A stretch of DNA of 51,221 nt from Bacteroidetes/Chlorobi group bacterium MS-B_bin-24. Lineage in GTDB: Bacteria > Bacteroidota > Ignavibacteria > Kapaibacteriales > UBA2268. This document shows, in pieces, positions 6,800 to 32,404 of this stretch. The stretch covers positions 1 through 51,221 of the forward strand of contig RCNO01000016.1 in NCBI GenBank assembly GCA_003731685.1, given 5' to 3'. Positions within the stretch are counted from its first letter, which is position 1. Each line of letters opens with the position of its first letter. Below the pieces are notes generated by a model, which ran no database searches, was not told the DNA's origin, and saw only the letters and a list, made by a program, of their open reading frames with translations. Made by a program: the position numbers and the translations under genes.

Positions 6800-6803
6800 A
6801 AAT

Positions 6804-7796
6804 ATGAATTCGACTTACAAACAGAGTGGAGTGGACATTGAAGCCGGAGAAAAAGTTGTTGAAATGATAAAATCTCTGGTTCGGACAACTTACAGTCCAA
6901 AAGTTTTGAGCGACTTGGGGCTTTTTGGTGGATTTTACGATGCAAGATTTAGCGAATACGAACATCCTGTCCTGATTTCGAGCACTGATGGTGTTGGCAC
7001 GAAGTTGAAGATTGCGTTTATGATGAACAAGCACGATACAATTGGGCAGTGTCTTGTAAATCATTGCGTAAACGATATTTTGACTGCCGGGGCAAAGCCA
7101 TTGTTTTTTCTGGATTATTTTGCCACGGGTAAATTGGATGTTGAAGTAGCTTACCAAGTTGTTAGTGGCTTAGTCAAAGCTTGTAAAGAAAACGACTGTG
7201 CTTTAATTGGGGGCGAGACAGCCGAAATGCCATCGTTTTATTCCGAAGGCGAATATGATTTGTCTGGTACAATCGTTGGCGTGGTAGATAAAAAGCAGAT
7301 AATCGATGGCTCAAAGGTGCAAAAAGGGGATGTTCTGATTGGTCTTGCATCCAATGGCTTGCATACAAATGGATATTCTCTCGCTCGAAATGTTCTTTTG
7401 AAAAAATTCCGAGTCGACGAATTTTTTCCTGAACTTGAAAATACATTAGGCAACGAACTTCTTAAAGTTCATAAGTCATATTTTAAAATTGTTTATCCTT
7501 TGATCGAAAAAGGGTTTATTAACGGAATTTCTCATATTACTGGTGGTGGTATTTTGGGGAATACAAAGCGAATTATACCAAGAGGACTTAGCCTGAAGAT
7601 TAATTGGACAGCTTGGGAACCCCCAGCCATTTTCAAACTTATCCAAGAGGTTGGAAATGTTGACGATGAGGAGATGCGGAACGTTTTCAATCTTGGTATT
7701 GGAATGATTTTGGTTGTTTCCGAAAATAATCTCGACAAAGTAATTAGTGAAATCGAGGGGAAAGAGCAATTTTTCGTAATCGGCGAGGTCTATTGA
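6804..7796 (+). CDS. purM: Phosphoribosylformylglycinamidine cyclo-ligase (AIR synthase)
   Basis: PurM converts FGAM to aminoimidazole ribotide with ATP, the fifth step of purine synthesis. The start chosen is the ATG at 6804, which has AAAGGA 7 nt upstream and gives the family N-terminus MNSTYKQSGVDIEAGEK. An in-frame ATG at 6780 would overlap the upstream gene. The 330-residue length is normal. Visible motifs are STDGVGTKLKIA, HCVNDILTAGAKPLFFLDYF, LIGGETAEMPSFY, GLASNGLHTNGYSLAR and ISHITGGGILGN, all standard for PurM. It follows the activase gene by 4 nt and overlaps the convergent M50 gene by 7 nt. No other pur genes are in the window. Confidence 0.96.
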   Translation: MNSTYKQSGVDIEAGEKVVEMIKSLVRTTYSPKVLSDLGLFGGFYDARFSEYEHPVLISSTDGVGTKLKIAFMMNKHDTIGQCLVNHCVNDILTAGAKPLFFLDYFATGKLDVEVAYQVVSGLVKACKENDCALIGGETAEMPSFYSEGEYDLSGTIVGVVDKKQIIDGSKVQKGDVLIGLASNGLHTNGYSLARNVLLKKFRVDEFFPELENTLGNELLKVHKSYFKIVYPLIEKGFINGISHITGGGILGNTKRIIPRGLSLKINWTAWEPPAIFKLIQEVGNVDDEEMRNVFNLGIGMILVVSENNLDKVISEIEGKEQFFVIGEVY

Positions 7797-8491
7797 TTTT
7801 TTAAAGCATTTTTTAAAGATAAAATAAACAGAATCAAAGTAAGAACAATTATCAAACCACCCCAAAACCAATTTGGAAGAAATAAATTTTGTGCGACTAT
7901 TTCTGTATCTGATGCAAAGGAAGATTGATTAACTATTCCACTTTTTGAAAACAAATATCCCATACTCAAGTAAACACTCACAAAGGCTTGTATTCCAATA
8001 GTTTGTGCTGTAACGACCGAAAGTTTTTCTTTTTTACCCAAAGCAACGAGTGCAAAAAATATGGAAATTCCTAAAAGAAAGACAAATCCAAATAAGTTTC
8101 TGACCCAATGGATTAAGCTTATAAAGATTGAAAATGAAAGGAGAAGCAAAAGAAATTTTACAATTTTTAAATTTTTGGAATAAGAAATAAAGAAATAACC
8201 AACAATAGGCGGGAAGATAGGACCACTTAAAGCAACCAAAGCACTTTTAAGGTTTGCCGATTGAAGAGGCAAGGTGTGGTAGGCAATACCGCTGCCATCG
8301 GCAAAGATTTCGATTTTCACCACACTCCCACCTACCAAAATCGCAGCAAGGCTATGTCCAATTTCGTGAAACCAAGTGCTAAGGAGGATAAAAGGATAGA
8401 TTATCATTCTACCTATTGGAAACTGAATCCAGATGATATTGAAAAGTAGGATAAAAAACGGAAAGGGAAGATATGAGCGAGACTTTTGCAT
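7790..8491 (-). CDS. M50-type membrane metalloprotease
   Basis: A 233-residue integral membrane protein. The first hydrophobic helices are followed by TWFHEIGHSLAAILVGG, in which HEIGH (residues 42-46) is the zinc-binding, catalytic HExxH of intramembrane site-2-type proteases. Further hydrophobic segments follow at about residues 80-105, 112-132, 136-150, 160-180 and 205-228. The sequence resembles M50B-like proteins, which lack PDZ domains. The second zinc-ligand motif (usually NPDG-like) is not obvious, so activity is not certain. The ATG lies 3 nt after the recN stop, so the two are probably co-transcribed; no functional link is implied. Its 3' end overlaps purM convergently. Confidence 0.8.
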   Translation of the reverse strand: MQKSRSYLPFPFFILLFNIIWIQFPIGRMIIYPFILLSTWFHEIGHSLAAILVGGSVVKIEIFADGSGIAYHTLPLQSANLKSALVALSGPIFPPIVGYFFISYSKNLKIVKFLLLLLSFSIFISLIHWVRNLFGFVFLLGISIFFALVALGKKEKLSVVTAQTIGIQAFVSVYLSMGYLFSKSGIVNQSSFASDTEIVAQNLFLPNWFWGGLIIVLTLILFILSLKNALKNQ

Positions 8492-15875: not shown

Positions 15876-17816
15876 ATGTGTGGCATTGGCGGGGTCCTCT
15901 GTTCAACTGAAAGCCGAATTCCAAGTTGCATTACCCCTCCAATTCTCGAATCGATGACCAATACGATAATCCACAGGGGACCAGATAGCGATGGGATTTG
16001 GATTTCAAAGAGTGGGCACTGTGGTTTCGGATTTCGACGACTCTCAATCATCGATTTAACTCCCGCAGGAAACCAACCAATGTCCACTGCCGATGGCTCT
16101 GTAACCATTGTCTTTAATGGGGAAATTTACAACTATTTGCAATTGCGAGAAGAATTAATAAGTAAAGGTTATAAGTTTCGTTCGCGCACCGATACCGAAG
16201 TAATCCTAAATGGATACAAAGAATGGGGATTCGAGGTAGTGAAAAAGATTTCGGGGATGTTCGCTTTTGTTTTATGGGACGAAGCAAAACAGCTGCTTTT
16301 TGGTGCTCGAGATAGAATTGGAAAGAAGCCACTTTATTACTATCAGCAAAATGATTTTTTTGTGTTTGCCTCGGAAATCAAAGCAATTTTAAAGCATCCA
16401 TTGGTTGCGAAAGAGCTGAACTGGAATGAATTATCGAGCTACTTAAATTTTGGGGCAAGTTCGAATCATTCCACATTGTTTCTTAATATTCAAAAGGTTC
16501 CACCAGCTCATTTTTTTGTTTTGGAAAGAGGCAAAAGCCAACCACGATTTGAAAGATACTGGAATCCATTCGAAAGGGAAAGAATTTTAGATATAAGCGA
16601 GAAAGAAGCAACAACAGAAATAATTCGCCTTTTGCGGGTTGCGATTAAAGACAGGATGATGAGCGATGTTCCCTTTGGTGTTTTTTTAAGTGGAGGAATA
16701 GATTCCAGCTTAAATGTTGCATTGATGTCCGAATTGATGGATAGACCTGTCGATACATTTACTATTGGTTTTAAGGAACTTGCAAAATATAACGAATTGG
16801 AATATACCCGAAAGATTGTCGAAATTTTCAAAACAAATCATAATGAAATTCTAATCGACGACAGAGATGCTTTCGATGTAGTTCAGGAGCTTGTGTGGTT
16901 CGAAGATGAACCGAATGCCGACCCCGTTTGCATTCCAATTTACTTTTTGAGCAAATTAACTCGAGATACAGGCACAATCGTTGTTCAAGTTGGCGAAGGC
17001 AGCGATGAGCAATTTGTTGGATATAACTGGCTACTTCGTGATTACAAATTTTACCACAGCATTTGGAAAAATTTTGATTTCCTCCCCAGTGCTTTAAAGA
17101 AATCAATATATTTTCTCTTAAAACCTGTTTTTAACTCTGCAAATCAATACTTGCCTTTGGAATTAATTCGCCGAAGTGCATACGACGAAGAATACTATTG
17201 GAGTGGGATTTCAATATTTCCACCAACTGAATTAGATGTTTTGCTGAATCCGGAATACAAGCATTTGAAATATAAACCTTGGAGTTATGTCTCTTCGATT
17301 TATAAGGAAGCTTTGGCATTGAGCGATGGAAATCTGGATTTTTTACAATGGGTTACTTTTGTCGAAATTTCGCAACGGCTTCCTGAACTTTTGCTTATGC
17401 GGATAGATAAAATGGGGATGGCAAACAGCATCGAGGCTCGGGTTCCTTTTTTGGACTACAAAATTGTTGAATTTACAATGTCTTTGCCTGCAAAGCTGAA
17501 AGTTCCCGATGGTAAAACCACAAAGTATCTTTTGAAGAAGGCAGTCGAAGGAATTTTGCCCCCTGAAATTATTTACAGAAAGAAACAGGGCTTTTGGGCT
17601 CCAATAAATGAATGGCTTCGGAATCAATGGTTCAATTTTGCTCACGATACCCTTAACAATTCTAATCTTTTGAAAAAGTTTGTCAATTTAGAATATGTGA
17701 ATAATATTTTGCTGAAGCATCGCGCTGGCAAAGGAAAGTATGCTTTTCGCATTTTTACTCTTTTGAATCTTGCTTTATGGTATAATAAGTTTTTCGACAA
17801 TCAGCCCATAGATTAA
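15876..17816 (+). CDS. asnB: Asparagine synthase (glutamine-hydrolysing)
   Basis: A two-domain, 646-residue amidotransferase converting aspartate, glutamine and ATP to asparagine. The N-terminal Ntn glutaminase begins MCGIGGVL, with Cys2 as the nucleophile once Met is removed, then IIHRGPDSDG, FGFRRLSIIDL and VFNGEIYNY. The synthetase domain has the PP-loop FGVFLSGGIDSSLNVALM and VGEGSDEQFVGY. The C-terminus (DYKIVEFTMSLPAKLKVPDGKTTK; RKKQGFWAPINEWL) fits the AsnB family. Such AsnB paralogues sometimes act in surface-polysaccharide loci, but no such cluster is adjacent, so the plain biosynthetic role is preferred. It overlaps the convergent rhomboid gene by 4 nt. Confidence 0.93.
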   Translation: MCGIGGVLCSTESRIPSCITPPILESMTNTIIHRGPDSDGIWISKSGHCGFGFRRLSIIDLTPAGNQPMSTADGSVTIVFNGEIYNYLQLREELISKGYKFRSRTDTEVILNGYKEWGFEVVKKISGMFAFVLWDEAKQLLFGARDRIGKKPLYYYQQNDFFVFASEIKAILKHPLVAKELNWNELSSYLNFGASSNHSTLFLNIQKVPPAHFFVLERGKSQPRFERYWNPFERERILDISEKEATTEIIRLLRVAIKDRMMSDVPFGVFLSGGIDSSLNVALMSELMDRPVDTFTIGFKELAKYNELEYTRKIVEIFKTNHNEILIDDRDAFDVVQELVWFEDEPNADPVCIPIYFLSKLTRDTGTIVVQVGEGSDEQFVGYNWLLRDYKFYHSIWKNFDFLPSALKKSIYFLLKPVFNSANQYLPLELIRRSAYDEEYYWSGISIFPPTELDVLLNPEYKHLKYKPWSYVSSIYKEALALSDGNLDFLQWVTFVEISQRLPELLLMRIDKMGMANSIEARVPFLDYKIVEFTMSLPAKLKVPDGKTTKYLLKKAVEGILPPEIIYRKKQGFWAPINEWLRNQWFNFAHDTLNNSNLLKKFVNLEYVNNILLKHRAGKGKYAFRIFTLLNLALWYNKFFDNQPID

Positions 17817-18424
17817 AAGATTTTTCCCATCCACCAAAGGAAAATTGAGACTGATTCAGGATGGATTAGGATTGTAAAAACCAAGCCCCAGACCGCTCCC
17901 CAAAAGTGAGCTTCGTGGTTTATTGTAGTCTCCCTTTTCGATGCATAAATGCAGTAAATCAGATAGAGCAGTGTAAAGATGGGCGCTGGGATGCCAAATG
18001 GAATAAAAAAGAAATAAATCCTCGACATTGGGTAGAGAAAGATAAAAGAAAAAACGACACCTGAAATTGCCCCAGAGGCTCCGAGCGAAAAATATAATGG
18101 ATTGTTTCGATATTTTATGAGGGAAGGGATAGATGAAACCGCGCCAGCAGTTAAAAATAATACTGCAAAAGCAAAACTTCCAATTGTTGTTTCAAGTTGT
18201 GGTGAAAAGAAATAGAAAGTCAAAAGATTGAAAATCAAATGGGTAAAATCGTAATGGACAAAGATATTTGTTAGAACTTGGTAATACTTTTTTCTATGAA
18301 AAACCGAGAAAGGATTCAAAGCAAGCAGACTTTTCAAATCACCTGCTTTGAATAAAGCAAGCAAAGATGTTCCCGCTATCAAAATAAAAAGTATAAGCGT
18401 GATAGGGGTTTCTTTAAAGCTCAT
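17813..18424 (-). CDS. Rhomboid-family intramembrane serine protease
   Basis: A 203-residue polytopic membrane protein with about six hydrophobic segments. Family features are YYQVLTNIFVHYDFTHLIFN (H62 and N66, helix-2 motif), GASGAISGVVF with the likely nucleophile S118, and INHEAHFWGAVWGLVF with the partner histidine H173. This is the Ser-His dyad of rhomboids, so an active enzyme is likely; substrates are unknown. It sits 14 nt downstream of the glutamine synthetase gene on the minus strand, probably on one transcript. Confidence 0.9.
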   Translation of the reverse strand: MSFKETPITLILFILIAGTSLLALFKAGDLKSLLALNPFSVFHRKKYYQVLTNIFVHYDFTHLIFNLLTFYFFSPQLETTIGSFAFAVLFLTAGAVSSIPSLIKYRNNPLYFSLGASGAISGVVFSFIFLYPMSRIYFFFIPFGIPAPIFTLLYLIYCIYASKRETTINHEAHFWGAVWGLVFTILIHPESVSIFLWWMGKIF

Positions 18425-18438
18425 TTATTTTTGTACGA

Positions 18439-19989
18439 TTAACAACGGTGTAAATTTCTATGCATAATTCTGCGCGATTCAATCAATCTTTCTTCTTCGG
18501 GCAAAGAGATAAGTCTTTGGTTCAAGTCCTTATCGTTTTCGGCAAGCAGTAGTTTTGCATAATAGTCGATAACTTCTTTGGGGAAAATGCCTTCGCGTTC
18601 GTAGTGGTGCCGTTTCTGAAGAAGTTTTTCAGCCGACTCGACGCAGCTTCGTCCAAGAATTTCGAGTTCTTTGTTTTCTAAACTCTTTGGGTCTTCGGTG
18701 ACGTTGTATTTTTTGGCAATTTCTAACGAGCGTTGGCTATTGGTCAAACCCCACTGAACAGCCAAGATTAGCCCGGCAAGCAAAAGATGAACAAGAGCAC
18801 TACCGTCTGGGCTTCGGAATTCGACTGTTTGGCGAGTGTCGTGGTATTCGAAAAGTTCCTTTTGCTGTGGGTTGATTTTCGAAGCTAGATTGTTTGCTTT
18901 GCTCCAAGCCAAAGGAACTCTAATCAACGAATTTCGGTTTGAGTGGCTCCAGCAAACTTTTGTTGGGGCTTCTTGCCCGGGAACCAAACGGAGATATGAT
19001 GCTGTAACTGTATTGCCAAAAGCGGTTAGGCTCGGAGCGTAATGGCATAAGCCACCGATTAGCATTAATGCTTCGGTGGATAGTTCTCCGGAGTTGTCGA
19101 CCATTATGTTTTTGTTGTCTTTTGTTAATGCAAGATGGAAATGTAAGCCATTACCAGCATGACCCGGGTCGATTTTAGGGAAAAACGAGGCAAAGCAATT
19201 GTTCTGGTATGCCACATTCCTAATTATCCAAGTCGACAGGGCAAGATAATTTGCAAGGTCTTCGATGTCGGTTAAAAAGAATTCAACTTCGAGTTGTTCC
19301 GCAGTTTTTCCATTTAACTCGGGGATTTCACTTTGAAGATTTTCTATGTAGCCAACTTCATTGTGGCAATATTTCACCGAGCCCGTAATTTGGGCAATCA
19401 AAGAAGCAATTTCGTTTAAAACAAGTGTAGTTTTGGCAAAAGGAGGGCTTGCATGGTAGCCTTGCTGTTTGGAAAGCATAAACATTTTTCGTGGTTGGTC
19501 AAAAATGAGATAAAATTCCAATTCACCCAAAGCTTTCAGGTCGTAGCCAGTAGATTTTAATAACAACTGATGAGCTTTGCTCAAAATCGTATCGGGAGTG
19601 AATTCAGCTGGATTACCATTGCTGTCGAAAAAGCGACAAACGAAGCCCAAGCTCTTTTTGTCGAATGGATTTACAAATGCAGTTTTGTACAACGGAACCA
19701 CATAAAGGTCAGATTTGCCAGTGCTTACAATACCTTTAAAAAGAGAGGAGCCATCGACACGTTCGCCGTCGGCAAGAATTGACTCCACTTGGTAAATGCT
19801 TTGAATTGGAATTTGCATCTGACGGAGCCTTCCGTCGATTGCAACATATTGGAAAGTAATTCGCTCAAGTTCCATTTGCTTGATAACTTTGATAATGTCT
19901 GCTCGGGTTAAATCTTCTTTCGGTTTGTTTGTTATAATTTGTATTGGATTATTCAATCCAAAATTATAATTTGAGTTTTGCATAACCAT
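18439..19989 (-). CDS. Glutamine synthetase family protein
   Basis: A 516-residue GS-fold enzyme (glutamate + ammonia + ATP to glutamine, or a related gamma-glutamyl ligation). Visible catalytic blocks are DGSS (80-82), GELEFYLI (E156 and E158), HNEVG (E211), QLEVEFF (E234), GNGLHFHLAL (H283), YLRLVPGQEAP, NRNSLIRVP and TVEFRSPDGS. The metal- and ATP-binding residues of GSI therefore appear retained. About 16 extra residues (GYIENLQSEIPELNGKTAEQ region) lie between the two metal-binding glutamates, and the C-terminal tail lacks the adenylylation-tyrosine motif of enteric GlnA. It could be a GlnA paralogue rather than the main assimilatory enzyme. The start could be either ATG at 19989 or 19983. 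Confidence 0.85.
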   Translation of the reverse strand: MVMQNSNYNFGLNNPIQIITNKPKEDLTRADIIKVIKQMELERITFQYVAIDGRLRQMQIPIQSIYQVESILADGERVDGSSLFKGIVSTGKSDLYVVPLYKTAFVNPFDKKSLGFVCRFFDSNGNPAEFTPDTILSKAHQLLLKSTGYDLKALGELEFYLIFDQPRKMFMLSKQQGYHASPPFAKTTLVLNEIASLIAQITGSVKYCHNEVGYIENLQSEIPELNGKTAEQLEVEFFLTDIEDLANYLALSTWIIRNVAYQNNCFASFFPKIDPGHAGNGLHFHLALTKDNKNIMVDNSGELSTEALMLIGGLCHYAPSLTAFGNTVTASYLRLVPGQEAPTKVCWSHSNRNSLIRVPLAWSKANNLASKINPQQKELFEYHDTRQTVEFRSPDGSALVHLLLAGLILAVQWGLTNSQRSLEIAKKYNVTEDPKSLENKELEILGRSCVESAEKLLQKRHHYEREGIFPKEVIDYYAKLLLAENDKDLNQRLISLPEEERLIESRRIMHRNLHRC

Positions 19990-20056: not shown

Positions 20057-20431
20057 ATGAATGTATTGGAAATTAGGGAATTATGTTTGAATTTGCCTTA
20101 TGTTCTCGAAGATTTTCCATTCGATGAGGAAACACTTGTTTTCAAAGTGATGGGCAAAATGTTCCTTTTAGTCGATTTGGTTTCGCACCCATTGATGGTT
20201 AGTTTAAAAGCCGACCCAGAAGAAGTTGTAAGACTGCGTGAAAGCTATTCTTTTGTTCTCCCTGCATACCATTTAAACAAAAAGTATTGGATTTCGTTAA
20301 TAATTGATGAATACGCGCCTATTAAACTTGTAAAAAAATTGATAGAAGATTCGTATTTTGAAGTTGTTAAGAAGCTTCCAAAATACAAACAAGAAATGAT
20401 TTACAATGAGATTAAGTATGAACGAAGATAA
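20057..20431 (+). CDS. MmcQ/YjbR family protein
   Basis: A 124-residue protein of the YjbR/MmcQ fold (CyaY-like alpha/beta): LEIRELCLNLPYVLEDFPFDEETLVFKVMGKMFLLV, then SLKADPEEVVRLRESY, VLPAYHLNKKYWISLIID and a C-terminal ELV-type helix (APIKLVKKLIEDSYFEVVKKL). Members are often annotated as DNA-binding, though this is poorly established. The stop codon lies inside the next gene, whose ATG is at 20418, so the two reading frames overlap by 14 nt. It may head the signalling cassette that follows. Confidence 0.88.
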   Translation: MNVLEIRELCLNLPYVLEDFPFDEETLVFKVMGKMFLLVDLVSHPLMVSLKADPEEVVRLRESYSFVLPAYHLNKKYWISLIIDEYAPIKLVKKLIEDSYFEVVKKLPKYKQEMIYNEIKYERR

Positions 20432-21422
20432 AGAATTATTAGCACAAAAGGTCGAGCAATATCTTGGGTGGAGAGTAAATCCTTATCGGATTAAAATCAT
20501 CACCGATACAACTGATTGGATGAAAATAAATCGCGGGGATATCATCAGATTGAATTGCGGGGATTATCTTGTTCGTGGGAATATGCGAGAGCCACGCTTT
20601 GGAATCGACGAGCAGCCGAAGTATTGGGTCTTCAGTGCTGTAGATTTGAATGACGGAAGTGAAAAAATATTGAAAATGGTTTTCCACGAGGAATTCTATG
20701 TGCATATTGGATTTTTGCGTATCCGCTGCTATCGTAATCCGCAAAAAGAAGGAGAGGTGTTGAAATTGGTGCGTGGGGATAATCGGTTTATGCAAGGTTT
20801 TGTGTGTTACGACGAAAAGAACAACGCCGTGCGTATTATTGATTTCATTCGTGGTAAATCCTTCTTTCAATATGTTCCGCTTATCGAAAAGAAAAGCCAT
20901 CTCGATTACTTCAACGAAGATTTGCCTAAGATTCTATGGAAACTGCTGGATTCTTTCAAAGCCATATTGTTTTTGCACGAGATTAAGCTTTGCCACGGGG
21001 ATATACGTAATGACCACATCATAGTCGAATCGGATACCGGGAATTATCGATGGATTGATTTCGATTTGATGCAGGATGTTTCCGATTTTGATTTGTGGAG
21101 TTGTGGCAACATTGTTTCCTATGCCGTCGCAAAAGGATTAAAAACATTTGACCAAGTAATCAAAGGGAATGAATTTCCAATCGAGGTCAAGAAAAGTTTA
21201 GTTGCCGAAGATGGCTCCGCGTTTTATAATTACCGAATTATGAATCTAAAGAAGCTATATCCTTATATTCCAATAAAATTAAATCGAATACTTCTTCATT
21301 TTACGATAAAGCCTGTGGCTTTTTACGGAAGTTTACGGGAATTTATAGAGGATTATGCGGATATGCTCGAGAGTGAATTCCCCAATGGAAAGCCCATTGA
21401 AAGTAAACAGGAGGTGAAATGA
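20418..21422 (+). CDS. Protein-kinase-fold protein with atypical motifs
   Basis: A 334-residue protein (338 if the in-frame ATG at 20406 is used; 20418 has a GAG 7 nt upstream). Kinase features by position: a beta-3-like lysine in EKILKMVF (K86), the catalytic loop LCHGDIRNDHIIVE (HGDIRNDH, 193-200) with its Asp and Asn in the usual spacing, and RWIDFDLM (DFD, 214-216) in place of DFG. DFDLWSCG resembles the helix-F Asp-Trp block. The first 60 residues are not kinase-like. Similar motifs occur in bacterial Ser/Thr kinase-like and small-molecule phosphotransferase folds, so the substrate may be protein or metabolite. It ends with an ATGA overlap onto the histidine kinase. Confidence 0.72.
   Translation: MNEDKELLAQKVEQYLGWRVNPYRIKIITDTTDWMKINRGDIIRLNCGDYLVRGNMREPRFGIDEQPKYWVFSAVDLNDGSEKILKMVFHEEFYVHIGFLRIRCYRNPQKEGEVLKLVRGDNRFMQGFVCYDEKNNAVRIIDFIRGKSFFQYVPLIEKKSHLDYFNEDLPKILWKLLDSFKAILFLHEIKLCHGDIRNDHIIVESDTGNYRWIDFDLMQDVSDFDLWSCGNIVSYAVAKGLKTFDQVIKGNEFPIEVKKSLVAEDGSAFYNYRIMNLKKLYPYIPIKLNRILLHFTIKPVAFYGSLREFIEDYADMLESEFPNGKPIESKQEVK
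21409..21414 (+). promoter_or_regulatory. Strong Shine-Dalgarno site (AGGAGG)
   Basis: A perfect AGGAGG lies 4 nt before the ATG of the Rossmann-PAS kinase, inside the 3' end of the kinase-fold gene. It supports the 21419 start despite the ATGA overlap and shows that this organism uses Shine-Dalgarno initiation at some genes. Confidence 0.7.
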
Positions 21423-23248
21423 AAGGAATTATAATTGGTGGCGGGAAGGGTTGTCTTGCAATTTTGAAGTTGATTCAAGGGAAGCAAATCAAGGAATTGA
21501 ACATCGAAGTTGTTGCTGTTGTGGATATTAACCCCAATGCCGAAGGCGTTCAATATGCACGCGAACTTGGCCTGATGATATTCCAAGATTACCGAAAGGC
21601 TCTTGAAATTCCCGGAGTTGAGCTTGTTATTGAATTAACTGGTAATGATGATTTTGTAAAACAATTGAAAAAAGAATTAAGCCCAGAGATAAAATTAATT
21701 GAACATTCAATTGCACATATCTTTTGGGATTTAATGTTTGCATACGAAGAGCTGGATAATAAAATTCAATCCCTCGAAAAATTGGAAAGAATTATTGAAG
21801 ATGATAATTTTTTCCTTAAATCTATTTTCGACAGCCTACAAGATTTAACGGTTGTAATGGATTTAGACCAAACCATCACGCGTGCAAATCGTGCTTTTTG
21901 CGAGTTTGTGGGCATTGAAGAAGATAAAATTATTGGTCAAAAGTGCTTCGAGGTGCTTAATATTGCCGATATTAACTGCGATAAAAAAGGTTTGCAAGAA
22001 ATAATCGATTATATATGCGAAACGAAGAAGCCTCATATGATGATTCACACCACACCGCCTCCGAACGAAACTTATTGGGAAGTAACCCGTTCGCCGATTT
22101 TCGATTCCAAAGGGAATGTTCGTTTTATTCTTTCTAACTGGCATAGAATTACAGAGCTTGTTTATTTGAAAAGAGAAGTAGAAAGTTTGGAGCAAAAGTT
22201 AAAAAGCTTTATCAATAATGCCCAAGATTGGATAAGTATGAAAAATTTGAATGGACAATATATTCTTGTAAATCCTGTAATTGCGAAGGCATTTAATTTG
22301 AAACCCGAGGATTTTATTGGTAGAACCCCAGAAGAAGTTTTGCCTGCACCCATTGCCAAAACTGTTCGAATGCACGACGCAGAAGTTTTAAGAACTGGGA
22401 AACCACGAATGTATAACGAAACAGTTACAATAAATGGCGAAGAACATCATTTTCGTATGCTAAGATTTCCTTTGACTGACTACAGCGGGAAAATTATTGG
22501 AACCTGTACAATTGGGCGCGATGCAACTAATGAAATACAATTGATGGAAAAGCTTATTCAAAGCGAAAAGCTTGCTGCTTTGGGGAAACTTGCTGCTGGG
22601 GTTGCCCACGAGATTAACAACCCGCTGACGGGAATTCTCTCCTATGCAGAAAGTATTCTTGATGAACTTGAAAGCGATAGTCCATTGCAGGATGACATTA
22701 AAATAATTATTCGCGAGACCCTTCGGTGTAGGGATATTGTTCGTAATCTGCTCGATTTTGCTAAGCAATATACACCGAGGCTTGAAATTGTCGACCCCAA
22801 TCTGATTATTCGTCAAGCACTTGAGTTAGTGCATCGCCTTCCACAGTTTAAGGATATTGAAATTAATGTTTTTTTGGAAGAGAGAATTCCCAAAATTAAA
22901 GCCGATGCCAAACAAATCCAACAAGTAATCCTGAATTTCCTTATAAATGCTGCTGATGCGATGAAGTACAAAGGTAAAATCACTGTTTCGAGTGAATATT
23001 ATCGCCAACAGAAGAAATGTATTATTTCCGTTGAAGACACAGGTCCCGGCATTCCCGAGAATCTGATGGATAAGATTTTCGAACCATTCTTTTCGACAAA
23101 AAGTACCAGTGGATTAGGATTGGCTGTGTCGTGGGGAATCGTCGAGCGGCACCACGGAACAATCGAAGTTGATACTGCACCATCGGGCGGGGCAATTTTT
23201 AAAATTGTTTTGCCTGCATTTTTTGAAAGCGAAGTTCAACAAAATTAA
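21419..23248 (+). CDS. Histidine kinase with N-terminal Rossmann-like nucleotide-binding domain and two PAS domains
   Basis: A 609-residue cytoplasmic sensor kinase; no membrane helix is seen. Residues 1-100 look like a NAD(P)-type Rossmann fold: KGIIIGGGKGCLAILKLI, VVAVVDINPNAEGVQYAREL with an acid at the end of strand 2 (D36), then GVELVIELTGNDDFVKQL, as in dehydrogenase N-domains. A coiled-coil follows (about 105-130), then PAS 1 (about 130-245), PAS 2 (about 260-370), HisKA with GVAHEINNPLTG (H397) and HATPase (INAADAM; VEDTGPGIPE; TSGLGLAVSWGIVERH). It presumably senses a dinucleotide or redox state and phosphorylates the response regulator 11 nt downstream; both points are inferred. Confidence 0.88.
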   Translation: MKGIIIGGGKGCLAILKLIQGKQIKELNIEVVAVVDINPNAEGVQYARELGLMIFQDYRKALEIPGVELVIELTGNDDFVKQLKKELSPEIKLIEHSIAHIFWDLMFAYEELDNKIQSLEKLERIIEDDNFFLKSIFDSLQDLTVVMDLDQTITRANRAFCEFVGIEEDKIIGQKCFEVLNIADINCDKKGLQEIIDYICETKKPHMMIHTTPPPNETYWEVTRSPIFDSKGNVRFILSNWHRITELVYLKREVESLEQKLKSFINNAQDWISMKNLNGQYILVNPVIAKAFNLKPEDFIGRTPEEVLPAPIAKTVRMHDAEVLRTGKPRMYNETVTINGEEHHFRMLRFPLTDYSGKIIGTCTIGRDATNEIQLMEKLIQSEKLAALGKLAAGVAHEINNPLTGILSYAESILDELESDSPLQDDIKIIIRETLRCRDIVRNLLDFAKQYTPRLEIVDPNLIIRQALELVHRLPQFKDIEINVFLEERIPKIKADAKQIQQVILNFLINAADAMKYKGKITVSSEYYRQQKKCIISVEDTGPGIPENLMDKIFEPFFSTKSTSGLGLAVSWGIVERHHGTIEVDTAPSGGAIFKIVLPAFFESEVQQN

Positions 23249-23259
23249 TATTAAATAAA

Positions 23260-24036
23260 ATGGGTAGTGACAAAGTAAAAATTTTGGTTGTCGACGATGA
23301 GCAAATTGTTTTAGACAGCATAAAGAGAATACTTAAAAAGGATGATGATATTGAAATATTCACTGCAATATCCGCTGTCGAAGGGCTCGATTTGCTCAAC
23401 AAATTTCAACCAAATATAATTTTAACAGATTTGATGATGCCCGAAATCGATGGGCTTGAATTTCTTCGCAAAGCCAAAGAAGTGGACGAAAAGATACTTG
23501 TTATTATGATAACAGGTTACGCAACAATTAATACCGCTTTGCAAGCAATGCAGTTTGGTGCGTTCGATTATATTGCTAAGCCATTTACTCGCGAAGAATT
23601 GCGCCGAGTTATCGACAGAGCAAAAAGTATTGTTGTGAGCCAAATCAAAAATGGTATTAAATCGCCTTTGCAAAACGAGATAATAAGCAACATTCAGGGT
23701 GTAGGTCAATACTCTTGGATGATGATGAACGACGAGGGTTTGGTCGTGCTTGGCGTTGAGCGTGCAGTTTTGTTTTCGTTCGGGAAAATACAAACAATTT
23801 ACTTGCCATCGGTTGGAGATGAAATCAGGCAGGGCAGTGTTTACTTCCAAATATTCTCATCCGATTTAAGAACACAATCCATTCTTTCGCCGTTGAGTGG
23901 AACAGTTGTGGAGGTTAACAAAGCTGTATTAGATAACCCAGATGTTGCATTGCAAGACCCTTACGGCGAAGGTTGGTTGATTAAAATAAAACCGTCGAAT
24001 TTTGAAGCCGATATGAAAACTTTGGGTCTTCTATGA
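23260..24036 (+). CDS. Response regulator fused to a GcvH-like domain lacking the lipoyl lysine
   Basis: A 258-residue fusion. The receiver (residues 6-122) has the acidic pocket VVDDEQ (D12, D13), phospho-acceptor D57 in LTDLMMPEIDG, T85 and K108. Residues about 150-250 resemble glycine-cleavage H protein: IYLPSVGDEIRQG, LSPLSGTVVEVNKAVLDNPD and QDPYGEGWLIKIKPSN. In GcvH the lipoylated lysine sits in ESVKA. Here the equivalent stretch is SSDLRTQS (about 200-207), with leucine at the aligned position and no lysine nearby, so lipoylation there looks impossible. There is no DNA-binding output domain; the GcvH-like module is probably a protein-docking output. It lies between the Rossmann kinase and the radical SAM gene. 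Confidence 0.88.
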   Translation: MGSDKVKILVVDDEQIVLDSIKRILKKDDDIEIFTAISAVEGLDLLNKFQPNIILTDLMMPEIDGLEFLRKAKEVDEKILVIMITGYATINTALQAMQFGAFDYIAKPFTREELRRVIDRAKSIVVSQIKNGIKSPLQNEIISNIQGVGQYSWMMMNDEGLVVLGVERAVLFSFGKIQTIYLPSVGDEIRQGSVYFQIFSSDLRTQSILSPLSGTVVEVNKAVLDNPDVALQDPYGEGWLIKIKPSNFEADMKTLGLL

Positions 24037-24045
24037 GAGTTTCCA

Positions 24046-25086
24046 ATGGTCGAGGCTATTCTTTACGATAAGTTGCCCGATTTAGCTGTTCGATGTAATC
24101 TTTGTAATCATTATTGCGAGATTAAAAATGGCTATGGGGGTATCTGTCGTGTTCGATTTAATAAAGGAGGAACGCTGTATTCCTACACTTATGGGAAAAT
24201 TGATGGAGTTGCAATCGACCCGATAGAGAAAAAGCCATTTTATCATTTTAAACCTAAAACCAGAGTACTTTCTTTTGGAACACCGGGGTGTAATTTCAAA
24301 TGTTCGAATTGCCAGAATAGTTATCTTTCGCAATCGATTAAACTTAAGCCCGAGAATTTATTAATGAGTACAACAGTTCCGCCCGAACAAATAGTTAAAA
24401 TCGCAGAAGAATATAATGTCGACGGAATTGCATATACATATTCCGAGCCTACAATTTTTTTTGAATATGCTCGCGATATAATCAACCTTGCCCGCAAGAA
24501 TGAAAAGACCAAAAATCTCTTCCATCTATTTGTCTCGAATGGCTATTTTAGCAAAGAAATGCTTGAGATAGTTGATAATGAAAAATTACTTGAGGCAATA
24601 AACATAGATTTAAAATTTTTTGATGACCAAAAGTATTTGAAAATAACTGGTGGACATCTGAAACCTGTTCTCGATAACATCGAGAAAGTATATTCATTGG
24701 GAATACATATAGAAGTTATCAATTTAGTGATTCCGGGTGAGAATGATACGGATTCGAGCTTCGAAAAAATTTCGAATTTTATTGCTTCAATTTCCAAAGA
24801 TATTCCCTTGCATTTCAGTCGATTTTATCCACAATACAAAATGCTCGACAAACCTCCGACACCGTATTCTACTTTGATTCGGGCTCGGGAAATTGCAAAG
24901 TCTTTTGGTTTGAATTACGTTTATATTGGTAATACCGATATTCCAGATGCAGAGAATACTTACTGTCCTCAATGTAATTTTCTTGTTATTGAACGTCAAA
25001 GATATTTTGCGAAAATCAATTACAAAAAAGAACAAGGCAAAGCGATATGTCCAAATTGTGGAGCACAATTAAACGTAATTATTTGA
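24046..25086 (+). CDS. amrS: AmmeMemoRadiSam-type radical SAM enzyme
   Basis: A 346-residue radical SAM protein related to pyruvate-formate-lyase activases. An N-terminal four-Cys cluster (C17, C20, C24, C34) precedes the [4Fe-4S]/SAM motif GCNFKCSNCQN (C82, C86, C89; CxxxCxxC). Further blocks are GIAYTYSEPTIFFEYA, LEAINIDLKFFD and HFSRFYPQYKMLDKPPTP, typical of AmrS. A C-terminal zinc-ribbon-like pair, CPQC...CPNC, closes the protein. The AmmeMemoRadiSam set is named from co-occurrence of three families; its reaction is unknown to me. The partner AMMECR1 and Memo genes are not within the window. It starts 9 nt after the response regulator gene. Confidence 0.9.
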   Translation: MVEAILYDKLPDLAVRCNLCNHYCEIKNGYGGICRVRFNKGGTLYSYTYGKIDGVAIDPIEKKPFYHFKPKTRVLSFGTPGCNFKCSNCQNSYLSQSIKLKPENLLMSTTVPPEQIVKIAEEYNVDGIAYTYSEPTIFFEYARDIINLARKNEKTKNLFHLFVSNGYFSKEMLEIVDNEKLLEAINIDLKFFDDQKYLKITGGHLKPVLDNIEKVYSLGIHIEVINLVIPGENDTDSSFEKISNFIASISKDIPLHFSRFYPQYKMLDKPPTPYSTLIRAREIAKSFGLNYVYIGNTDIPDAENTYCPQCNFLVIERQRYFAKINYKKEQGKAICPNCGAQLNVII

Positions 25087-26234
25087 GCATTGGCTTGCTT
25101 TTCTTGATGTTATTACTTTCGTCGATGCACCTGCATAGCCAATGGCCTGCAATGAAAACCGATGCCGATAGTTTAGTCCTGCTTGGTGCCGATTACATCT
25201 ACAATATGGAGTTTGACAAAGCCGAGAAATGCTTTAACGAAGTGATAAAAAAATATCCGCAATTGCCAGCTGGGTATTTTCTCAACGCAATGGTAGATTG
25301 GTGGAAAATAGCGGTTTTTCGGGACTCCCGAGAATATGACAATTCTTTTCTCAAAAAAATCCAGAAAGTTTTGGATGTTTGCGACCAGATACTCGATACA
25401 AATGAATTTGAATTAAGTGCATTATTTTTCAAAGGAGGGGCTCTTGGCTACCGTGGTAGGTTCCACGTTGTTCGGGAAAATTGGTTTCGTGCTGCGTCGG
25501 ATGGGCATAGTGCATATCAAATTTTGTTGAAATGTTTGGAAATAGCACCGAATAATTACGACATTATGCTTGGAACTGGAATTTATAATTATTTCGCCGA
25601 GGTCCTACCCGAGCAATATCCTGTTATTAAGCCACTGATGCTTTTTCTACATAAGGGCGATAAAAAGCTGGGAATACTTCAACTGCAAGCTTCGAGCAAA
25701 TATGCTCGATACGCAAGCGTAGAGGCAAAGTTTGTTCTAATGCAAATTTATTACGATTTTGAGAAGGATTTCTACTCTGCTTTGGAGATTGCAAGAGAAC
25801 TCGTTGCAAAATATCCTAATAATCCCGTTTTCCAAAGATACTTGGGCCGTTGTTTGGTTTCGCTCTATATCCTTGATGAATGGTTAGAGCATTGGCAGAG
25901 AATACTTAAATGGTATAGCGAAAAAAAGCCCGGCTACGACCTGCTGACCGCCCGAGAAGCTCTATATTACGTTGGGAGCGCCTTGATGGAAAAAGGCAAA
26001 TACGATGAGGCTTTGAATTATTTTTATAAATGTGATGAACTTTCCCGAAAGTTGGACAAAGATGGACCTTCGCCTTTTATGATTTATCTAAATTTGAAAA
26101 TCGGAAAAATTTTCGATTTACAAGGGAAAAGAAAATATGCTATAATGCAGTATCAGAAAGTGCTTTCGTGGAAAAATTTCCGGGATTCACACGAGCAAGC
26201 TAATAAATATCTTCAAACTCCATATACAAGATAG
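25047..26234 (+). CDS. Secreted TPR-repeat protein
   Basis: A 395-residue protein with a signal-peptide-like start (LSIGLLFLMLLLSSMHLHSQ). Helical repeats follow: LLGADYIYNMEFDKAEKCFNEVIKKYPQLPAGYFLNAM, a DNYDIMLGTGIYNYFAEVLPE block, then EALYYVGSALMEKGKYDEALNYFYKCDEL and a final repeat near the C-terminus. These are tetratricopeptide-like hairpins that mediate protein contacts, here outside the cytoplasm. The first ATG overlaps the radical SAM gene by 40 nt. A later Met (in FLMLLL) would shorten the signal to an implausible length, so the overlap is accepted. It ends the cassette that begins at 20057. Confidence 0.78.
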   Translation: MSKLWSTIKRNYLSIGLLFLMLLLSSMHLHSQWPAMKTDADSLVLLGADYIYNMEFDKAEKCFNEVIKKYPQLPAGYFLNAMVDWWKIAVFRDSREYDNSFLKKIQKVLDVCDQILDTNEFELSALFFKGGALGYRGRFHVVRENWFRAASDGHSAYQILLKCLEIAPNNYDIMLGTGIYNYFAEVLPEQYPVIKPLMLFLHKGDKKLGILQLQASSKYARYASVEAKFVLMQIYYDFEKDFYSALEIARELVAKYPNNPVFQRYLGRCLVSLYILDEWLEHWQRILKWYSEKKPGYDLLTAREALYYVGSALMEKGKYDEALNYFYKCDELSRKLDKDGPSPFMIYLNLKIGKIFDLQGKRKYAIMQYQKVLSWKNFRDSHEQANKYLQTPYTR

Positions 26235-29740: not shown

Positions 29741-31027
29741 TTAAACCCAACCGCGAAGCCTAACAGCATCGGCAACTCTGGTAATAGCAATCATATAAGC
29801 GGCATCGCGCATATATTCATTTTTCTTAATTGCAAGGTCCAAGACGGAATGATAGGCGCTTGTCATCTTTTGGTCAAGTTTCTGCAGAACTTCTTCCTTT
29901 GTCCAATAATAGTTCATATTGGATTGAACTTGTTCGAAGTAGGAGCAGGTAACACCGCCGGCGTTGCAGAGGAAGTCTGGAATAACGTGAATCTTTTTGG
30001 CTTTCAGAACTTCGTCGGCTTCGGGAGTTGTTGGTCCATTTGCACCTTCGGCAATTATTTTGACCGATGGCTTGATTAACTGCACTGTGTCTTTGTTGAT
30101 TTGGTTTTCCAAAGCAGCAGGAACGAGGATGTCGACTTCTTGCTCAATCCAGGCAGTTCCATCAAGAATTTCATAGCCAAGGTCTTTTGCCTTTTCTTTG
30201 TCGATTTCACCAAACTTGTTGGTAATCCCAATCAGTTCTTGGAAACTAATTCCAGTTTTTTTACGGAAAGTGATTGCTCTTTTTTCTTTCGGGTCCCAAG
30301 TGGAAACCGCAATAGCTGTTCCGCCCATTTGGGTGTAAAGGTCGAGAGCATATTGGCTAACATTTCCGAAGCCTTGGAAAGAAGCCGTAGTATTTTTGAT
30401 ATCAATTCCAAGGTGCTTCAATGCTTCGCGCACTGTGTACATTACGCCATAACCTGTGGCTTCGGTTCGACCCAAAGAACCACCTAAACCAAGTGGTTTA
30501 CCGGTTATAAATCCGGGAGCCTTAATTCCCGTGATTTTTTCGTACTCGTCGAGCATCCAAATCATATGTTGGCTGTTGGTCATAACATCCGGGGCTGGAA
30601 CATCTTGTAATGGTCCTACATTACGAACAATCTGGCGGACCCAACCACGGCAGATTTGCTCTTGCTCGTGAAGAGTTAATTCGTGTGGGTCGCAAACGAC
30701 GCCACCTTTTCCGCCACCCAACGGGATATCGACAACTGCGGTTTTCCAAGTCATCCACATTGCGAGTGCTCGCACAGTATCGATTGTTTCGTTGGGATGG
30801 AAACGAATACCACCTTTTGCCGGACCACGAGCATCGTTGTGTTGAACGCGAAAGCCACGGAATACACGATAAGTACCGTTATCCATACGGATTGGGATGT
30901 TGAATTGATATTCACGCTCGGGAAATCGAAGTAAATCGCAAGTTGCTTGGTCTAAATTAAGCTTCTTTGCAACAGCATCAAATTGCTGTTGTGCCATTTT
31001 GAATGGATTAAAACCTTCTGTTGACAT
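29741..31027 (-). CDS. gdhA: Glutamate dehydrogenase (Glu/Leu/Phe/Val dehydrogenase family)
   Basis: A 428-residue NAD(P)-dependent dehydrogenase interconverting glutamate with 2-oxoglutarate and ammonia. Blocks in order are GFRVQHNDARGPAKGGIRFHPNET, MTWKTAVVDIPLGGGKGGVVCDP (substrate lysines), VPAPDVMTNSQHMIWMLDEY, the Rossmann motif FQGFGNVSQYALDLY and LVPAALENQINKDT...EGANGPTT. Length and motifs match the roughly 420-residue hexameric class. AAGGA lies about 7 nt before the ATG. The leader holds a short palindrome (31059-31076), and a strong terminator follows. It is monocistronic, flanked by convergent and divergent genes. Coenzyme preference cannot be read with confidence. Confidence 0.95.
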   Translation of the reverse strand: MSTEGFNPFKMAQQQFDAVAKKLNLDQATCDLLRFPEREYQFNIPIRMDNGTYRVFRGFRVQHNDARGPAKGGIRFHPNETIDTVRALAMWMTWKTAVVDIPLGGGKGGVVCDPHELTLHEQEQICRGWVRQIVRNVGPLQDVPAPDVMTNSQHMIWMLDEYEKITGIKAPGFITGKPLGLGGSLGRTEATGYGVMYTVREALKHLGIDIKNTTASFQGFGNVSQYALDLYTQMGGTAIAVSTWDPKEKRAITFRKKTGISFQELIGITNKFGEIDKEKAKDLGYEILDGTAWIEQEVDILVPAALENQINKDTVQLIKPSVKIIAEGANGPTTPEADEVLKAKKIHVIPDFLCNAGGVTCSYFEQVQSNMNYYWTKEEVLQKLDQKMTSAYHSVLDLAIKKNEYMRDAAYMIAITRVADAVRLRGWV

Positions 31028-31058
31028 TGTTTTTTCCTTTTTTGTTAATAATAACTAA

Positions 31059-31076
31059 ACTTCGTAAAAACGAAGT
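31059..31076. promoter_or_regulatory. Palindrome in the gdhA leader
   Basis: ACTTCGT (31059-31065) and ACGAAGT (31070-31076) form a perfect 7-bp inverted repeat around AAAA, 32-49 nt upstream of the gdhA ATG. It could be an operator or a small leader hairpin. The remaining spacer to 31333 is AT-rich; I see no RNA gene and only weak -7-like sequences such as TAGTTTTA at 31265, before ilvE. Confidence 0.3.
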
Positions 31077-31333
31077 CTTAAAAAAGCAAATTACTAAAAA
31101 AAATTCAGGCAAAAGGTATTGTTTGAATATATTTAAAAGTTTTGTGATAAATTTGTTAAAATGGTGTTGGTGTTTAAAATTGAAAAGGGCAGAAAACCTG
31201 TTTATCTATAATGATTATCAAAACTTGTCGAAATTATAGTTTTCCACATTTTCATTACATTAAGTAGTTTTACTTCGTGGATTGTAAAAATTTTCGTAAA
31301 ATTACATTTCAAAATTTTTCAAATGGTGAAGAA

Positions 31334-32404
31334 ATGGGAATACAAATTGAAAAAGCAACCCAAACCCGTTTTGATTCAATTGATTGGAAAAATTTAGGCT
31401 TTGGCCGCTATTTTTCCGACCATATGTTTATAAGCTTTTATCGCGACGGAAAGTGGGATGATGGTAAAATCGTTCCTTATGGTCCTATTTGTTTCGAACC
31501 ATCGATGATGACTTTACACTATGGTCAAACAATTTTTGAGGGATTAAAAGCCTATTATGATGTTAATGGTGGGGTCAACCTTTTCCGACCCGAGATGAAT
31601 GCAAAACGAATGCAATCTTCTGCCGAGCGTCTTTGCATACCTCCTTTCGATGTGGAAAAATTTATCGAGGCAATTATCGAACTTATTAAGCTTGACCACA
31701 AGTTTGTGCCCAAAGTCAAAGGGGAATCGCTTTATATTCGTCCCGTTTGCTTTGGTAGCAGTTGTTTCCTTGGGGTTCACCCTTCGCAGGAGTATACTTT
31801 TATAATTATAACTTCGCCAGTTGCTTCTTATTATCCCGAAGGATTAAATCCGGTAAAAATACTTATTGAAGACCAATTCGTTCGGGTAGTTCGAGGCGGC
31901 TTGGGAATGGCGAAAACTGCTGCCAACTATGCTGCCTCGCTTTATGCAGGACAGCGTGCCAAAGAAAAAGGCTTCTCGCAAGTCCTTTGGCTCGATGGGA
32001 TTCATCACGAATTCGTCGATGAAGTTGGTGCGATGAACATAATGTTCGTAATTGATGATATTTTAATCACTCCACCTTTAACACAGGGCACAATTCTCCC
32101 CGGGGTGACCCGGGATTCTGTTTTACATCTTGCCCGACAAATGGGAATCAAAGTTCAGGAGCGTTCGATTAAGATTCAAGAAGTTCTGGAAGCATACGAA
32201 CGAGGCACTTTGCAGGAGGTCTTTGGTACTGGCACCGCTGCAACAATTTCACCTGTGGGTAAGCTTTATTATCGCGATAAGGAACTAATTATCAACAATA
32301 ATCAAATTGGACCGATTGCTCAAAAGATGTACGACACACTGACGGGGTTGCAGCACGGAATAATCAAAGACACTTATAACTGGATAATTCACATTGATGT
32401 TTGA
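31334..32404 (+). CDS. ilvE: Branched-chain amino acid aminotransferase
   Basis: A 356-residue fold-type IV PLP enzyme for the last step of Leu/Ile/Val synthesis or the first step of their breakdown. The start at ATG 31334 gives the usual MGIQIEKATQ; an in-frame GTG at 31277 adds 19 residues unlike the family. Motifs are GPICFEPSMMTLHYGQTIFEGLKAY, YIRPVCFGSS, VRGGLGMAKTAANYAASL (the lysine here is the probable Schiff-base residue), FVDEVGAMNIMFV, PLTQGTILPGVTRDSVL and EVFGTGTAATISPVGKL. Length fits the eukaryote/Bacteroidetes-type IlvE of about 355 residues. It is divergent from gdhA. Confidence 0.93.
   Translation: MGIQIEKATQTRFDSIDWKNLGFGRYFSDHMFISFYRDGKWDDGKIVPYGPICFEPSMMTLHYGQTIFEGLKAYYDVNGGVNLFRPEMNAKRMQSSAERLCIPPFDVEKFIEAIIELIKLDHKFVPKVKGESLYIRPVCFGSSCFLGVHPSQEYTFIIITSPVASYYPEGLNPVKILIEDQFVRVVRGGLGMAKTAANYAASLYAGQRAKEKGFSQVLWLDGIHHEFVDEVGAMNIMFVIDDILITPPLTQGTILPGVTRDSVLHLARQMGIKVQERSIKIQEVLEAYERGTLQEVFGTGTAATISPVGKLYYRDKELIINNNQIGPIAQKMYDTLTGLQHGIIKDTYNWIIHIDV

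Follow-up and report, generated by a model that had tools for sequence, protein, structure and literature searches.

A two-component response regulator with an H-protein output domain that lacks the lipoyl-lysine, and a co-inherited protein-kinase-like gene, in a Kapaibacteriales genome

The output domains of two-component response regulators are usually DNA-binding or enzymatic. A gene of the Bacteroidetes/Chlorobi group bacterium MS-B_bin-24 (order Kapaibacteriales) raises the question of what a response regulator can do with an output domain that has the fold of the glycine-cleavage H-protein (GcvH) and no lysine at the position where GcvH is lipoylated. The gene occupies positions 23,260 to 24,036 of the 51,221-nucleotide stretch of contig RCNO01000016.1 that was analysed (hereafter, the window) and, like the other genes of its operon described below, is read on the forward strand; its open reading frame starts with ATG and encodes 258 amino acids. 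The original prediction held that this protein joins a receiver to a GcvH-like output, and proposed a binding module controlled by phosphorylation of Asp57. The joined architecture is borne out by Pfam, which places a receiver domain (PF00072, E 2.2e-28) at residues 8-118 (23,281-23,613) and a GCV_H domain (PF01597, E 1.1e-19, 71 bits against a cut-off of 22.2) at residues 150-252, with both scores far beyond chance. The residues of the acidic pocket and phospho-acceptor site, D12, D13, D57, T85 and K107, are invariant in 21/21 aligned proteins, Asp57 (codon 23,428-23,430) being the expected phospho-acceptor. With its full-pocket receiver and a histidine kinase gene beside it, the protein qualifies as a response regulator.

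Several lines of evidence assign the H-protein fold to the output domain, here delimited as residues 148-257 (23,701-24,030). Solved H-proteins are recovered by sequence: a search with the domain alone gave 1onl as the best of them (E 4.3e-13), and a profile built from 21 rows of the domain gave 2ka7 (E 6.8e-17). The AlphaFold model of the whole regulator (mean pLDDT 82.1, pTM 0.56) matches both receivers and H-proteins in Foldseek, and its predicted H-protein part superposes on 3klr with an rmsd of 1.7 over 104 columns and a TM-score by target of 0.74, in agreement with the claim that the fold is retained. When the whole regulator was submitted to VIA-align, receivers filled the list, and the structural match to H-proteins is therefore the one found by Foldseek, next to that in sequence. 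Seventeen residues of the domain are invariant across 21 regulator proteins from several phyla, and identity among orthologues is as high within the domain as over the whole protein.

The lipoyl-lysine was followed through the family. A genome scan, in which 80 loci were kept, yielded 20 full-length relatives of the regulator, 47-79% identical to it, whose record titles name Kapabacteria, Ignavibacteria, Bacteroidetes, Zixiibacteriota, GN15, the FCB group and Electryonea; two further searches added 16 regulators, which together with the window's own gave a set of 37 proteins. Not one of these 37 full-length orthologues has a lysine at the lipoyl position, which is lysine in 11/11 canonical-size GcvH proteins (picked for comparison by a frame length of about 130 amino acids, all with the lysine). 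Homologues that mostly keep the lysine are thus not what is found, and the predicted loss holds throughout the set. Which residue stands in its place is a matter of alignment. The leucine originally named is recovered by pairwise alignment, as Leu203 (L in 29, M in 6, T in 1 and F in 1 of the 37 proteins), whereas profile alignment puts Asp202 (D in 37/37) in the lysine column; the codons of both residues lie at 23,863-23,868. Since the lysine loop is one residue longer in the regulator domain than in GcvH, the choice between Asp202 and Leu203 depends on gap placement, and lysine is found in neither column. The further claim that no lysine lies nearby agrees with the first 21 regulators, none of which has one within five residues of the lipoyl position. 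Around the lysine loop, the regulator domain has wholly different residues from GcvH. D187, R190 and D202 do not vary among the 37 regulators and are mostly replaced in GcvH, and residue 204 is arginine in 31/37.

Neither decay of the domain nor a sequencing or assembly artefact accounts for the missing lysine, and both were rejected, since the domain is conserved across 37 proteins and the loss is present in 37 genomes; a lysine absent from all orthologues compared speaks for a conserved design rather than for decay. Nor is the domain the only H-protein of the cell. The window genome carries a canonical GcvH with the lysine on another contig, and at E 1e-8 the genomes of 17/20 relatives show a further GcvH-like frame of lesser length (three of the 20 have no such match), so that the regulator domain is an additional, altered copy of the fold. 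The kept fold, the lysine lost in 37/37 proteins and the family-specific invariant residues D187, R190 and D202 together point to selection for something other than lipoate, and a binding module is the candidate function most in keeping with a fold that is conserved while its chemistry is gone.

The regulator is the last gene of a three-gene operon, in which it follows a protein-kinase-like gene (338 amino acids, 20,406-21,422) and a gene for a soluble histidine kinase (609 amino acids, 21,419-23,248). The stop of the kinase-like gene overlaps the start of the histidine kinase gene by four bases, and the regulator begins 11 bases after the latter. Pfam identifies the histidine kinase by its HisKA (PF00512, residues 388-449, E 6.9e-16) and HATPase_c (PF02518, residues 496-599, E 6.9e-24) domains, which together span 22,580-23,215, and places two PAS domains ahead of them, PF00989 at residues 133-244 (21,815-22,150) and PF08448 at residues 266-372 (22,214-22,534); there is no membrane part among its Pfam matches. 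A histidine kinase directly adjoins the regulator in 35/37 loci (the exceptions are L013 and L159; in L148 it was read from two frames, and in L015 one middle PAS domain is missing), and the kinase-like gene adjoins the regulator in 25/37.

The N-terminus of the histidine kinase, at about residues 1-103 (21,419-21,727), is classed as a Rossmann fold by its glycine-rich GGGKG loop and by structural matches, with Asp36 following strand 2. Its AlphaFold model (pLDDT 85.5) finds 1nvm as the best Foldseek match (E 7.5e-05), and VIA-align ranks the NAD-dependent dehydrogenases 6nor (Z 11.4, rmsd 2.0 over 91) and 1nvm (Z 11.3, rmsd 1.6 over 93) ahead of GAR transformylases (Z about 10). The Pfam family GFO_IDH_MocA is matched weakly in 6/18 members (best 5.1e-04), and phmmer with this domain alone returned nothing under E 0.16. 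Because GAR transformylases resemble the domain too, its ligand need not be NAD, and given these matches and the weak Pfam scores, binding of NAD(H) is to be taken as a presumed property. The histidine kinases adjacent to the regulator in L010 and L161, the loci of genomes G261 and G305, have no Rossmann domain.

The first gene of the operon encodes a divergent member of the protein-kinase fold, as judged from its sequence: the protein encoded in the window scores 23.5 bits with PF00069, below the cut-off of 31.7, and 14/14 orthologues are matched (best 8.8e-09). K90, E115, D199 and D218, presumed from kinase motifs to be the catalytic Lys, the Glu, the HxD Asp and the DFG-type Asp, are invariant in 14 kinase-like proteins, and the presumed position of the catalytic-loop asparagine is taken by His204. 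With a histidine in place of the usual asparagine, the protein may perhaps be inactive.

The kinase-like gene is inherited together with the regulator, also where the two are on separate contigs. Among 100 genomes of the window's order, searched at E 1e-60 for the regulator and at E 1e-40 for the kinase-like gene, 14 have the regulator, the same 14 have the kinase-like gene and the other 86 have neither; in 8 of these genomes the two genes are on separate contigs (G261, G274, G280, G289, G293, G305, G311 and G312), and G293 has kept all three module genes on three contigs (C4, C7 and C2). The Rossmann domain of the histidine kinase occurs in 12/14 positive genomes (G261 and G305 excepted) and in 0/86 of the others. 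All 14 positive genomes belong to one family, whose other 17 sampled members have neither gene, and within this family the division into 14/31 with both and 17/31 with neither gives a Fisher value of 3.8e-09 in which kinship is ignored; inside one family, few events of gain or loss may underlie such a pattern. As a control, a neighbouring radical-SAM gene was found in 16/100 genomes (12/14 positive and 4/86 negative ones), and this imperfect agreement indicates that family membership explains part, and not all, of the match between regulator and kinase-like gene. The same radical-SAM gene, at 24,046, was rejected as a part of the module, as it lies next to the regulator in 5/21 loci and has a different phylogenetic profile.

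The association recurs in a second phylum, that of the genome G128 (titled Zixiibacteriota). Among 98 genomes, 20 have the regulator (one of them, in G166, truncated; G185 was counted on the basis of two fragments at contig edges), 20 have the kinase-like gene and 19 have both, with a Fisher value, kinship again ignored, of 1.7e-16 for counts of 18/1/2/77 that leave out the truncated regulator of G166; with it, the counts become 19/1/1/77. The genome with the regulator only (G138) is a single complete chromosome, and in the one with the kinase-like gene only (G183) the contig breaks off within the histidine kinase gene or immediately behind it. Over the whole set, the kinase-like gene accompanies the regulator in 33/37 genomes, and none is found at E 1e-20 in G124, G125, G137 and G138. 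The linkage is strong but not absolute, and these four genomes imply that the kinase-like protein cannot be the only target of the regulator everywhere.

A class-wide search of 119 genomes with the domain profile revealed more lysine-less GcvH domains, in settings that bear on their possible origin. In what we call type 2 loci (the window type being type 1, or T1), genes for HmcB/HybA-like, NrfD/HmcC-like and multihaem cytochrome proteins and for a membrane histidine kinase are followed by two tandem receiver-GcvH genes. This arrangement is complete in 6/7 fetched loci (L118-L122 and L131), which were picked for their tandem matches and do not give an unbiased rate; in the seventh, L123, the NrfD call and the first regulator are absent in the ORF calling used. 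The NCBIfam scores of the electron-transfer genes are under the Hmc and Hyb cut-offs, and we therefore call these neighbours Hmc/HybAB-like only. A zinc-ribbon-like stretch (weak Pfam match, residues 488-515) apparently interrupts the ATPase domain of the L118 kinase. Type 3 comprises membrane-anchored GcvH-like proteins of about 230 amino acids, whose neighbours are genes for HmcB-like and NrfD-like proteins, a histidine kinase, a receiver-bearing regulator and archaemetzincin. GcvH-like proteins that are long or membrane-anchored and have no conserved lysine were seen beside two-component genes in L124-L130, L162-L164 and L166, and most of these loci have archaemetzincin-like genes. In L165 a receiver-GcvH gene directly precedes HmcB- and NrfD-like genes, and two radical-SAM/SPASM genes (L165:8836-11140) lie directly upstream of it. 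Finally, L163 (at 3414-4712 and 6604-8475) has a fusion of a 2Fe-2S/4Fe-4S ferredoxin with GcvH near a NuoF-like gene, which also has another GcvH protein beside it, and a GcvH-bearing homologue is present at L162:14719-16026.

In a tree of GcvH domains (98 rows, 110 columns; canonical GcvH proteins were labelled 'TRUE' by their lysine motif) the window type forms one clade (100/95), sister to the first regulator of the type 2 loci, T2a (98/84), and a weak branch (84/41) joins T1/T2a to canonical GcvH. The second regulator of the type 2 loci groups apart, among the membrane types (clade 100/99), which indicates that receivers were fused to such domains at least twice. In T2a, where we also counted L093, labelled T1 by score and placed in T2a by the tree, the lysine column holds D in 8/11 proteins and K in 1/11 (L108), so that the loss of lysine is not complete in the sister clade. 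The T2a loci suggest that the ancestral setting was one of electron transfer.

How, then, might the window's module work? The reading that we favour, at a little short of an even chance, is that of a three-gene cytoplasmic module which joins redox-type sensing, relay to Asp57 and lipoate-free H-protein docking to a kinase-like target. By means of its Rossmann and PAS domains the histidine kinase would respond to conditions in the cytoplasm, in the first place probably to the NAD(H) pool, and would phosphorylate Asp57 of the regulator, whose output would be neither DNA binding nor catalysis: its lipoate-free H-protein fold would serve as a protein-docking module. The co-inherited kinase-like protein is the most likely docking target, and the phosphorylated regulator might switch its activity or its choice of partner; we infer it as the best candidate because it alone shares the distribution of the regulator even when unlinked. 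The binding module of the original prediction would thereby gain a candidate partner and a likely signal from its operon, from the kinase-like gene inherited with it and from the electron-transfer settings of the sister domains.

The domain might instead dock on a redox enzyme, for instance an electron-transfer complex of the membrane, with the kinase-like protein as a parallel output or upstream. The operons of the sister clade T2a argue for this, as do the receiver-GcvH gene of L165 and the ferredoxin fusion of L163; yet no such complex is found beside type 1 genes, and none of the window genome's four NrfD loci is matched by the sister NrfD profile at E 1e-5, so that we think this arrangement unlikely, though a serious contender. 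A more improbable proposal is that the H-protein domain modulates the enzymes of glycine cleavage or of lipoylation, as a decoy or regulator, binding the partners of GcvH without lipoate and tuned by phosphorylation. The core residues common to GcvH are kept, and genuine or possible GcvH proteins coexist with the regulator in the window genome and in most of its relatives, as such a role would have it; the lysine-loop surroundings, however, have become wholly unlike those of GcvH, three of the 20 genomes show no second GcvH-like match, and no glycine-cleavage or lipoylation gene is present in the window operon or recurs in the relatives, which makes a decoy less likely than docking to a redox enzyme. 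Very little probability attaches to a loop with another chemistry, in which D202 and R204 would bind a metal or small ligand, or another residue would be modified, and the domain would be a sensor or carrier: the constancy of D202 and the frequent R204 could be read in this way, but no conserved set of Cys or His ligands lies nearby, and the sister clade has D in only part of its members and K in one. Smaller still is the chance that a degraded carrier domain persists as a mere spacer or dimerisation piece; its known chemistry is indeed lost, and this reading is at odds with 17 invariant residues across several phyla and with a domain as conserved as the protein around it.

Compared with known systems, the regulator shares with GcvH (PF01597, TIGR00527) the full-length fold, the DPYGEGW block and core Gly, Pro and Trp residues, and differs from it in the missing lipoyl-lysine, the fused receiver and the lack of glycine-cleavage genes beside it; as the defining lysine is absent and the TIGR00527 equivalog score is 64.1 against a cut-off of 115.85 bits, it is not a GcvH. 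It is also far under the cut-offs for two other non-canonical GcvH relatives that have NCBIfam models, the chlamydial GcvH-like protein (TIGR03077, 48.4 against 144.05 bits) and the desulfo GcvH-related protein (NF045810, 36.5 against 150 bits). Another relative recruited to a different job, likewise in redox metabolism, is LbpA, the lipoate-binding protein of sHdr sulfur oxidation. In the LbpA study, 95/95 aligned proteins keep the lysine and most have two conserved cysteines (PMC6067878); both features are absent from the regulator domain, and no hdr-like genes occur among the scanned neighbours of the regulator, which is not an LbpA. With two-component response regulators it has in common the acidic-pocket receiver and the adjacent histidine kinase, and it departs from them in an output that is an H-protein fold, neither DNA-binding nor a known enzyme. 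Comparable too are the receiver-GcvH pairs and membrane-anchored GcvH-like proteins beside Hmc/HybAB-like complexes, which also place lysine-less GcvH domains in two-component loci; they differ from the window type by a membrane histidine kinase with HAMP and by the electron-transfer genes beside them, and no kinase-like gene of the window type was seen in the loci fetched.

No receiver-GcvH protein or output, and no GcvH with NrfD, was found in open-licence PMC full texts by title and abstract start, and a two-component regulator with a lysine-less H-protein output is apparently undescribed in that literature; domain databases may list the architecture. Here a cofactor-carrier fold seems to have lost its cofactor site and to have been retained for signalling, partnered by a constant histidine kinase and by the kinase-like gene that is inherited with it. 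Its fusion to a receiver and its inheritance with the kinase-like gene suggest the reuse of an ancient piece of an enzyme as an adaptor in signalling, and the module offers a small, testable system for the turning of a metabolic protein into a regulator. The lysine-less GcvH domains beside Hmc/HybAB-like and NuoF-like genes suggest that many of the 'glycine cleavage protein H' annotations given by pipelines to such proteins are wrong, and that respiration and two-component signalling may be connected in a way that has gone unrecognised. We put forward, tentatively and as something that we would not yet bet on, the broader idea that lysine-less H-protein domains are a wide family of redox-signalling adaptors derived from a lipoate carrier, joined to receivers at least twice, through which two-component systems would be coupled to electron-transfer complexes or to the NAD(H) pool. 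In the window type a dedicated protein kinase would be the next step, and a His-Asp relay would thus govern a kinase of the serine/threonine type by way of an H-protein without catalytic function.

The flanks of the module are common only to close relatives. Around it in the window (15,876-19,989 and 29,741-32,404) lie genes that by eye resemble those of nitrogen metabolism, namely genes for asparagine synthetase, glutamine synthetase, glutamate dehydrogenase and a branched-chain aminotransferase. Note also that a second contig of the window genome (L003) has the radical-SAM gene and all three genes of the module again, with an unchanged offset, where G000:C23:25318-28629 repeats window positions 22,207-25,518; with 2,899 of 2,900 bases identical and one N, this second regulator copy was rejected as a paralogue and is an assembly duplicate.
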